Assembly: GCA_025041175.1 (NCBI GenBank)
Contig: JAKCFJ010000001.1
Location: forward strand, 434,001 to 498,000
Source: Halobacteriales archaeon YIM A00010
Lineage (GTDB): Archaea; Halobacteriota; Halobacteria; Halobacteriales; Haloarculaceae
DNA: 64,000 bases
Direction of reading: 5' to 3'
Shown here: piece after piece, positions 8,473 through 44,560 of the stretch
How positions within the stretch are numbered: position 1 is the stretch's first letter
Layout: every line of letters starts with the position of its first letter
Notes under the pieces: model-generated
The model's database searches: none
Told to the model about the DNA's origin: nothing
Seen by the model: only the letters and a program-made list of their open reading frames with translations
Made by a program: the position numbers and the translations under genes

Positions 8473-8850
8473 GTTCCAATTTTCAGTAGCTTTCAGTAGC
8501 AACCCGTTGGAAGTGGGTACACTGGTGGACGGTTGGGCCGCGTCCATCGCTACCATCTGCGTTCGACTCGGGCAGGGTGACAGCGGGTGCCACATGGGCC
8601 GACCCACCACCAACGGTCACCCGTGCCTGTCCGGGGGTGTAAACGACAACGCCATGTCCGAACGTGAGCCGCGTGCCAGCGTCAGACCCGCTGTCTGACG
8701 AGGATCGCAAAGCACAGCTTTGCTCACCAGCGTCAGAGCGTGGCTCTGACGTGCATCGCGAAGCACAGCTTCGCTCAACAGCGGAACGGCCAGCTAGCAC
8801 GGTTTCGGAGGTCCCCATATAGGAGACCGTGAAACCGTGGTTGAGCTTCC
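8473..8850 (-). ncRNA. predicted omega (guide) RNA scaffold of TnpB
   Basis: In known TnpB systems the guide RNA comes from the 3' end of tnpB and continues past the element end. Here this stretch is rich in stem-loops, including a 9-bp stem (CACGGTTTC 8798-8806 with GAAACCGTG 8831-8839) and two tandem double hairpins. By that model the guide would begin with the HAD sequence just beyond 8472, on the minus strand. This is inferred from position and structure only. Confidence 0.35.
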
Positions 8851-18273: not shown

Positions 18274-19008
18274 AGAGAAAGTGGTTAACAATCGGTTGTT
18301 TGTCTTTCGATCTTTTCTCGTTCGGTTCCAAACACGCAATCTGAGTATCGGTGAGTTCGGCAGTTCCGATCCTGCTCGGCCATTTGATGGGTGCTGTCGC
18401 GCGCTGAACACACCTGTAAGCAGTCACTTCCTTCATTGCAGGGTGTAACGAACCTCGATTCTTTTTATGGTCGAAGGGATGTAACTGAGAGTGACCTACT
18501 GAGGCTCGATAATCACGCGCGTCTCGTCGGTGTCAATGTGCAACCGATCGCTGTCGTTGAGCTACGAATCGGCCTGTTGATGAAGCGAGCGGGTCGAATA
18601 GAACCGGTCTTCAGTAAGCTGTCTTGGGGTGGACTCACGCTGACCGCACTGCGACTGTACGCAGGGAAGCTTCTTGCTCACCACAGCGCTGTGGTGCAGC
18701 TCCGTTCGGATCGCTTCGGCGCTGGCAGCACTGACGTGATCCTTGAGGAGAAATTCACTGCTATCAGTCTGTCCCGGCCGGTAGCAACGCCCGATACCGG
18801 TGGCTCGTTGCTACGCTCCGAGGAACCGCCGACAGAACAAGATGTTAGTACGATATAACATTGTTCGTTCCATCAGTACCTTTATGTGTGATGGGGAAGC
18901 CAACGATAGATGAGAACGCCGGTGGCGCCGTGAGGGCGTGTGCGTTCGTGTTGAACGCGCCGGGTGTATAGGCACCCGACGCTGGGGTTCTCGCAAGCAC
19001 TCGAACCC
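18274..19008. other. 735 bases without a convincing gene
   Basis: A 155-codon open frame (18391-18858, plus strand) lacks recognisable domains and has poor composition, so I do not call it. On the minus strand, RLHIDTDETRVIIEPQ followed by a stop near 18499 could be the end of a decayed HalOD1-type domain. CACCACAGCGCTGTGGTG near 18679 is a perfect 18-base palindrome. GGGTG/CACCC (18962-18976) forms a hairpin just before the next gene. Confidence 0.4.
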
Positions 19009-19158
19009 ATGACTGGGAATGAATCAGAGACATGTAACGGTGTCGCATCGTATCAGGAATGCAATGAACAGCGCCAGCGCTGCCCGGTGTGTGGCCGGCC
19101 GGTTCGTACGCGCCTCGAACACCGGATGGGGTGTCCGTTGGGGCGGTGGTGGCGATGA
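19009..19158 (+). CDS. small zinc-finger-like protein (49 residues)
   Basis: The product MTGNESETCNGVASYQECNE continues with RCPVCGRPVRTRLEHRMGCP, giving a CxxC knuckle and a later His/Cys pair that could bind zinc. Small proteins of this kind are common in haloarchaea. Its stop overlaps the start of the next gene in ATGA, so the pair is translationally coupled. Confidence 0.55.
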   Translation: MTGNESETCNGVASYQECNEQRQRCPVCGRPVRTRLEHRMGCPLGRWWR

Positions 19159-19712
19159 CGCTGCCGTTGTTCCAGTTCCGGGATCAGCGTGGGGAGGTCG
19201 TGAACCTCTCGGCCGCCACGGATCGGGCGGAGATCGTGACGGCCGAGCTATACCACAGTATCGACGTAGGCGAAGGACTGTGGTGCCGGCCCTGCCAGTC
19301 GACTGGCTGCGCCCACGCGACCCAGATCGAACAGATACTGGCGACGGCGGGGCTTGGTAGGACCCAAACGGGCGGGTACGACGAACTGCCGGGCATCGCG
19401 CGGTTCACCCGCTACTGCGCTACCGGTGAGACGATCATCGAATGCTGGTTCGACAACGGCGCATGCGTCCGATTCCACGAGCAGCGCGATGGCGACGTGA
19501 TGCAGTCCGTGTTTAGCCCCGACGACTCGCACGAACCGGCCGCCATGACCGAGAAACCCGACGCAGAAAGCGCTCCGGCCTGTCTGGTCGCAACACTCGT
19601 GAGGTACTGTGAGTATCGACAGCGCGGCGATCTCACGGGCTTACGGGAGCGCTACCCCGAGCTGGCGCGCGTCGTTGGAGAGGCCGCCGCTGCACCCACC
19701 ACCGACGACTGA
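19155..19712 (+). CDS. hypothetical protein, coupled to a small zinc-finger gene
   Basis: This 185-residue acidic protein is not one I recognise. It starts MTLPLFQFRDQRGEVVNL at the ATG overlapping the upstream stop. It has several cysteines (GLWCRPCQSTGC near residue 41), a likely metal or redox centre, and an alpha-helical C-terminus (LVRYCEYRQRGDLTGLRERYPELA). The overlap with a zinc-knuckle gene suggests the two proteins act together. No membrane segments or signal peptide. Confidence 0.6.
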   Translation: MTLPLFQFRDQRGEVVNLSAATDRAEIVTAELYHSIDVGEGLWCRPCQSTGCAHATQIEQILATAGLGRTQTGGYDELPGIARFTRYCATGETIIECWFDNGACVRFHEQRDGDVMQSVFSPDDSHEPAAMTEKPDAESAPACLVATLVRYCEYRQRGDLTGLRERYPELARVVGEAAAAPTTDD

Positions 19713-35993: not shown

Positions 35994-36048
35994 TCACAAG
36001 ACCAGAGGTCTTGTTAGCCAACCAGAACGCTCCGCGTTCTGGTGACGT
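35994..36048. repeat. 55-bp double-hairpin insert in tnpB (second)
   Basis: ACAAGACC-AGA-GGTCTTGT, linker TAGCCA, then a 10-bp stem ACCAGAACGC-TCC-GCGTTCTGGT. It interrupts GVNSLAV and is flanked by CGT on both sides. CCAGAAC/GTTCTGG is shared with the first insert, so the two are related. It shifts the frame by 1. Confidence 0.85.
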
Positions 36049-43712: not shown

Positions 43713-44453
43713 TCAGGCGCGTTCGACGCCGACCCGTCCGGTATCGGTGTCGGTACACAGCGTGAACCGGTCGCCGAGCCAGTCGGCAGCCGAACCGGTG
43801 CCGTGGACGAGCAGCTCGGGGAGATCAGCCGGCTCGTCGATGTCCGTGCCGAGCCGGTAGGAGTCCACCGTTCGGGTGCTGGCACCGATCGTTTCACAGC
43901 GGGTCAGGTGGTCGATGTACGACGCTCCGTGGTAATCCACCCGGAAGTCGGGGTGGCGCGCGAACACGGCGTTCGTTCCACCTCCCCGTCCCGGAGCGAA
44001 CACCACGTCGCCCGGCGTTTCGAGGAGCCGGGCGACCGCTGTGGGCGTTGCGAGAGCGAGATCCGCCATCACGATCGCTGTTGCCGGCCTACGGCCGGCT
44101 TCTCGAGGCGCGTAGCGCCTCTCTGTCGCCGGACTCCGTCCGGCTGCTTGTCGAACATCGTTCGACTCTGTCGCCGAGCTTCGCTCGGCTGCTTGAGGAG
44201 CTTCGCTCCTCTCTGTTTCCGGCTGGAGCTGTGCGTTTACCGCCTCGGTCAACGGTCGGTTGTCGACGATACAGTCCTCCTCCGAAAGCGGGGCCGTCGA
44301 CAACACGGTCGGAACGTACCCCGCCTCTCGAACGGCGCTGAGAACGTCTTTGAGCATCCGCCGGGACAGCTCCCGACGTTCTCCTGCGTCGAGCACGGGC
44401 GCGAGCCGCGTTTTCGGCTCGTCGACGCGGTAGGGAACCAGCACGCGCGTCAT
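43713..44453 (-). CDS. cofC: 2-phospho-L-lactate guanylyltransferase CofC with in-frame hairpin insert
   Basis: This 246-residue nucleotidyltransferase activates phospholactate (or a related acid) with GTP in F420 synthesis. It starts MTRVLVPYRVDEPKTRLAPVL, the nucleotide loop, and has the metal-site AIVMADLALATPTAV and GDVVFAPGRGGGTNA further on. Between NAQL and AIVMADL there is an extra 45-residue Ala/Arg/Ser stretch made of three 15-residue units, encoded by the hairpin array at 44083-44217. The flanking catalytic segments are intact and the frame is open, so it may still work. ATG 44453 fits the family start. Confidence 0.85.
   Translation of the reverse strand: MTRVLVPYRVDEPKTRLAPVLDAGERRELSRRMLKDVLSAVREAGYVPTVLSTAPLSEEDCIVDNRPLTEAVNAQLQPETERSEAPQAAERSSATESNDVRQAAGRSPATERRYAPREAGRRPATAIVMADLALATPTAVARLLETPGDVVFAPGRGGGTNAVFARHPDFRVDYHGASYIDHLTRCETIGASTRTVDSYRLGTDIDEPADLPELLVHGTGSAADWLGDRFTLCTDTDTGRVGVERA
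44083..44217. repeat. three tandem 45-bp double-hairpin units inside cofC
   Basis: Six perfect 17-base hairpins, each a 7-bp stem with a 3-base loop, lie at 44083, 44105, 44128, 44150, 44173 and 44195. They alternate with 5-base (TTCTC, TGCTT, TGCTT) and 6-base (TCTGTC, TCTGTC, TCTGTT) spacers, giving an exact 45-base period. Stem arms differ (GCCGGCC, GAGGCGC, GCCGGAC, GTCGAAC, GCCGAGC, GAGGAGC), but every one is paired perfectly by its partner. CTGTT lies at both outer edges. Confidence 0.95.
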
Positions 44454-44560
44454 GGCTGTGGTAAACGAATGATCGACGGTCGTTTCATACCCCGCTGTCA
44501 ACGCCCGACGGACAAAAAGCTGTCAACCGAACTGTGCAACGCTCGTGCGCCACACAGGGG

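Follow-up and report, generated by a model that had tools for sequence, protein, structure and literature searches.

The hairpin array within cofC of this haloarchaeon consists of three copies of a short repeat that is dispersed across Halobacteriales. We consider it likely, on balance, that these copies are non-autonomous mobile repeats, inserted one after another and moved in trans via a folded single strand. With this family, archaea would have their own counterpart of the in-frame palindromic elements, order-wide in distribution and lodged inside conserved enzymes as well as in the end hairpin of tnpB.

The window, i.e., the whole 64,000-nucleotide stretch that was analyzed, carries the cofC open reading frame on its minus strand (43713-44501; 2-phospho-L-lactate guanylyltransferase; TIGR03552, 144 bits). 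This host gene holds an insert of 135 bp (44083-44217) made up of three 45-bp two-hairpin units, which add 45 residues in frame. All six hairpins are perfect, each with a 7-bp stem and a 3-nt loop. Read on the plus strand, unit 1 (44083-44127) is formed by H1 (44083-44099), the spacer TTCTC, H2 (44105-44121), and TCTGTC; unit 2 (44128-44172) by H1 (44128-44144), TGCTT, H2 (44150-44166), and TCTGTC; and unit 3 (44173-44217) by H1 (44173-44189), TGCTT, H2 (44195-44211), and TCTGTT. Successive hairpins start 22, 23, 22, 23, and 22 bases apart, and this alternation makes up the exact 45-base period that an earlier note on this DNA had described. The six self-complementary hairpins claimed there are likewise all present. 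Two spacers differ from those given there: TGCTT recurs in units 2 and 3 and TCTGTC after units 1 and 2, whereas the first inner spacer is TTCTC and the last outer one TCTGTT. As DNA, the array folds with -48.1 kcal/mol against a mean of -24.9 for shuffled sequences (z = -8.8), and its folding as RNA is also far stronger than that of shuffled sequences (z = -7.9). When ten 20-kb pieces were picked arbitrarily from this genome, hairpins with 3-nt loops showed no excess in them (38 versus 22 to 44 for other loop lengths); therefore, the excess is confined to the arrays.

Further copies with the same geometry, for which the earlier note had proposed a covariance search, are numerous. The array used as a BLAST query hit 41 places in the same genome, and 864 kb of that genome, chosen mostly around such places, contained 33 arrays with a minimum of three hairpins each. 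The two-hairpin unit was then cast as a covariance model, which gave at least 99 matches in this genome, that of a Halocatena species; genome-wide unit counts, taken from model matches and sampled pieces, are lower bounds. The model also matched 47 of the 59 genomes in the search of relatives (own genome included) and had no match in 69 genomes of the same phylum outside the order. When the exact consensus pattern was run against 84,980 species genomes, it returned 36 stretches, all titled haloarchaeal. The basic element spans 45 bp and reads H1 (7-bp stem, 3-nt loop), TGCYY, H2 (7-bp stem, 3-nt loop), and KCTGT.

Comparison with relatives provides filled and empty versions of the cofC site. 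The same flanks enclose 192 bp in the window and 57 bp in Halocatena pleomorpha and other genomes of the genus; the insert thus measures exactly 135 bp (3 x 45), in agreement with the claimed in-frame addition of 45 residues in this minus-strand gene. Halocatena salina carries an array at the same cofC site, partly decayed and with unpaired changes; the loop of the first hairpin is GTA there and TAC in the window. Related CofC proteins mostly run almost directly from the VNA..L helix into the VMADL strand with no insert, and the alignment check suggested earlier thus revealed a lineage-restricted segment. Structure prediction, also suggested to see whether the insert is a surface loop, returned a low-confidence, loop-like segment (about residues 78 to 122) with a pLDDT of ~50 versus >90 for most other CofC residues, and the sequence alignment with the solved homologue 2i5e leaves a short gap at this position. 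The model therefore places the insert in a predicted loop of CofC. This loop tolerates additions, since low-complexity insertions of unrelated sequence are present there in some other haloarchaeal CofC proteins. We find it highly implausible that selection maintains the 45 residues as a functional peptide of CofC. Such a peptide would be in keeping with the filled site in two Halocatena species and with the other additions to the same loop, but the insert is missing from most CofC proteins, its predicted conformation is poorly defined, and the unit yields unrelated peptides where different genes read it in different frames.

The borders of the insert suggest a target rule. CTGTT marks its left border (44078-44082, plus strand) and recurs at its end (44213-44217), CTGTC lies at the inner junctions, and the empty cofC site of H. 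pleomorpha has a single CTGTT. Filled/empty pairs are available for cofC, the CCA-adding enzyme, and the tnpB terminal hairpin. Together with a tnpB gene in the window, which was compared with the usual motif rather than with a sequenced empty site, the four comparisons (cofC, CCA enzyme, tnpB hairpin tip, and window tnpB) are consistent with insertion behind a Y-G-T or C-G-T, and the last bases of the element are likewise Y-G-T. Empty sites disclose no clear target duplication; as the element end resembles the target, a short duplication would be hidden, indistinguishable from the element's own end. The 5' flanks of the units are mostly CTGTC, TCGTC, and CCGTC, with CTGTC at 68 and NCGTC at about 27 of 123 units.

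The impact of the family extends to various proteins with Pfam domains, and in several enzymes the units stand inside the domain itself. Units occur within the open frames of PEP carboxylase, acyl-CoA synthetase, a heavy-metal P-type ATPase, the CCA-adding enzyme, PurD, ValRS, molybdopterin oxidoreductase, pyridine nucleotide oxidoreductase, and glucose/sorbosone dehydrogenase. Six-frame reading of 42 units found two frames always open and most of the others usually so. Since 45 bp make 15 whole codons and open frames predominate, a unit often stands in frame in conserved genes, as a hydrophilic linker. The units may bear on how new disordered linkers enter proteins. The window also contains a hairpin pair of ~55 bp (35994-36048; stems CAAGACC and ACCAGAACGC, target GGCGT) inside the RuvC-I motif of a tnpB gene, where it is out of frame and adds a stop; by our own reading, this insertion is not silent.

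A preferred site lies at the end of tnpB. A plain hairpin, e.g., CCGCGCCGT-TC-ACGGCGCGG, terminates most copies of one IS605 tnpB family; in six copies, which come from several genera, the loop tip of this terminal hairpin bears the unit and the hairpin stays unbroken. One Halorientalis strain harbors two TnpB elements, 92% identical, one with the unit at the hairpin tip and the other without it. These alignments suggest independent insertions at a single preferred site. The known layout of IS605 elements is the basis for placing the 3' end of the omegaRNA at the terminal hairpin, and on this analogy the hairpin is probably that 3' end. Haloarchaeal omegaRNAs (PMC12558985) were also used for this reading. 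We considered whether the unit had arisen from the terminal hairpin of tnpB and rejected this, because most copies in the family have the hairpin without the unit. A general preference for palindrome tips found no support either, outer stems flanking few units. Just downstream of the zinc-ribbon region of another tnpB, the window shows an array of four hairpins (8682-8774) that differ from the unit in stem and spacer type.

The make-up of the arrays is informative about their origin. Units differ at a mean of 10.46 positions within one array and 10.35 between arrays; neighbors being no more alike than random units, the arrays look built by repeated insertion rather than by duplication and drift. 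Furthermore, the first cofC unit equals a unit elsewhere in the genome (locus L012, 9985-10034) at all 34 stem and loop positions. The idea in the earlier note of sequence drift with maintained pairing inside the array finds no support in these two observations or in the unpaired decay of the H. salina array. They also speak against growth in place, in which one hairpin pair would have been duplicated in tandem and the copies would have drifted, their arms held complementary by repair templated on the hairpin (quasi-palindrome correction, template switching). We regard this explanation as unlikely, even though several loci fit it. At one of them (L136), H. salina has two near-identical tandem units, H. 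pleomorpha one, and this genome none, which documents a tandem duplication; at a site shared by H. pleomorpha and this genome (L011/L145), both carry arrays whose stems differ on both arms; and the same stems are found with loops in both orientations.

Pairing itself is nearly complete. Across 42 units, 99.5% of stem cells are paired, G-T accounts for 3 of 588 cells, and two-sided stem changes number 109 versus at most 7 in slid controls. A sample collected by spacers only comprised 156 perfect hairpins out of 190, and those of its hairpins with up to three mismatches held 19 G-T and 8 A-C mismatches. The scarcity of G-T pairs, along with the two-sided changes, favors copying or recognition of folded DNA over selection on RNA, with the mild excess of G-T over A-C leaving some room for the latter. 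Selection on mRNA stability, termination, or regulatory structures as the force that keeps the hairpins is nonetheless very unlikely in our judgment. It could draw on the strong predicted RNA folding and on the acceptance of units at the unbroken tnpB hairpin tip, besides the G-T excess; yet the units lie in both orientations along the chromosome and deep within unrelated catalytic domains, the aligned stems hold few G-T pairs, and the Rfam search of the cofC region gave no match above threshold, a sub-threshold microRNA being the single hit. The earlier interpretation is supported in part: the dispersed copies and filled/empty sites fit a mobile element, and selection at the RNA level is not favored.

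Returning to repeats mobilized in trans, we envisage a series of steps. With CTGT at the end of the element, every copy would present a new target at its edge, and successive insertions of different copies would generate arrays with a 45-bp period. In transit, units would be single-stranded and folded into hairpins, and recognition may rely on hairpin geometry and the short spacers, not on the sequence of the stems. Units that are copied, or have mismatches corrected, while folded could keep their arms complementary and flip loops, whereas inserted copies would decay like ordinary DNA. An enzyme acting in trans, perhaps a Y1 transposase of the IS200/IS605 type, would move the units; this is the weakest step. 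The genome has four PF01797 and 33 PF07282 matches, and a scan of the edges of four tnpA (Y1 transposase) loci found no 45-bp GC-rich unit. In known IS200/IS605 ends, the cleavage site stands farther from the hairpin. No strand or replication bias of the units was seen along the chromosome. A structure-recognizing tyrosine recombinase that moves units as folded single strands, by analogy with integron attC sites, would also account for conserved structure with variable sequence and for insertion at a short core with no clear duplication. We deem it quite unlikely, since the units carry no gene and also occur singly inside genes. A more far-reaching version of folded-strand mobilization can be put forward tentatively: a hairpin-geometry system acting on folded ssDNA might renew perfect palindromes at each move, spreading a stop-poor 15-codon linker into conserved genes and the tnpB terminal (guide-RNA) hairpin. 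Since stem sequence varies while pairing stays perfect, the family provides a natural test of mobile-DNA recognition by folded shape.

An A/T-rich two-hairpin unit (spacers TGTC, TGCTC, and GATGTC) lies at the end of one Y1 transposase gene of this genome (L163, ~1830-1868), and A/T-rich hairpins lie near other tnpA/tnpB genes.

Among known systems, the haloarchaeal unit resembles the Rickettsia palindromic elements (RPE) and the CGTC-tagged REPs in behavior and deviates from GTAG REPs and SMR-A in some features that were tested. The likeness to RPE that had been pointed out earlier holds for dispersed palindromic copies standing in frame within genes of unrelated function. With RPE and the CGTC-tagged REPs (PMC3733652, PMC10969869), the units have in common that they are short dispersed palindromic repeats, many of them in frame in unrelated conserved genes, with no dedicated transposase known. 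They differ from both in their restriction to haloarchaea, their 45-bp layout of two fixed 7-bp/3-nt hairpins, their variable stems with pairing kept, their arrangement in arrays, and perhaps their left flank, which is more often CTGTC than CGTC. A search of openly accessible literature found no earlier archaeal in-frame palindromic element or RPE counterpart.

SMR-A of Haloquadratum (PMC3119063) shares with the unit the condition of a transposase-free haloarchaeal repeat with no target duplication that sits within near-terminal palindromes of IS605-type elements, a trait seen in the six copies at the tnpB hairpin tip. Its mobilization was called "enigmatic" by its authors (PMC3119063). SMR-A is about 110 bp long, conserved in sequence, and bounded by terminal inverted repeats (PMC3119063), whereas the unit has 45 bp, is conserved in structure, and is common in ordinary genes; its two palindromes each fold into a hairpin of their own and do not form a pair of terminal repeats. 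A search for SMR-like relatives comparing R1 with the Haloquadratum plasmid PL47 gave no significant match. The PATE elements of Haloquadratum have no coding capacity, palindromes near both ends, no inverted terminal repeats, and no target duplication, and exist in 52-bp terminal-only forms (PMC3119063). The unit might belong with them, as its palindromes and the lack of a clear duplication would fit. PATE palindromes resemble IS605 ends in sequence (PMC3119063); in the tnpB family, the unit has been added to the end hairpin and is not homologous to it. GTAG REP/BIME repeats with RAYT are similarly dispersed, structure-rich, paired hairpins, but the flank counts reveal no GTAG tag next to the hairpins, and the 45-bp GC-rich unit is absent from both sides of the four tnpA loci. 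CRISPR arrays have the reverse organization, i.e., identical repeats and unique spacers, in contrast to the conserved spacers and variable hairpins described here.

Other repeats surfaced in the sampled loci. In the window, a stretch of ~0.9 kb (18803-19712) has ~70%-identical copies in many sampled loci of this genome and H. salina; the open reading frame inside it (19089-19712) had no significant Pfam match. Some arrays (e.g., L025, 9594-9798; L010, 9893-10011) mix the 45-bp unit with a hairpin type of longer stem (ACCAGAAATC, CAAGAGC), joined by the related spacers TGCTA and GATGTC. In another family (L222-L241; G053, G124, G037), the unit is embedded in a longer, high-copy interspersed repeat, e.g., with CTCAAAGGGGCAGTC flanks, in which the stems are identical and the loops change, including TCC versus GGA.
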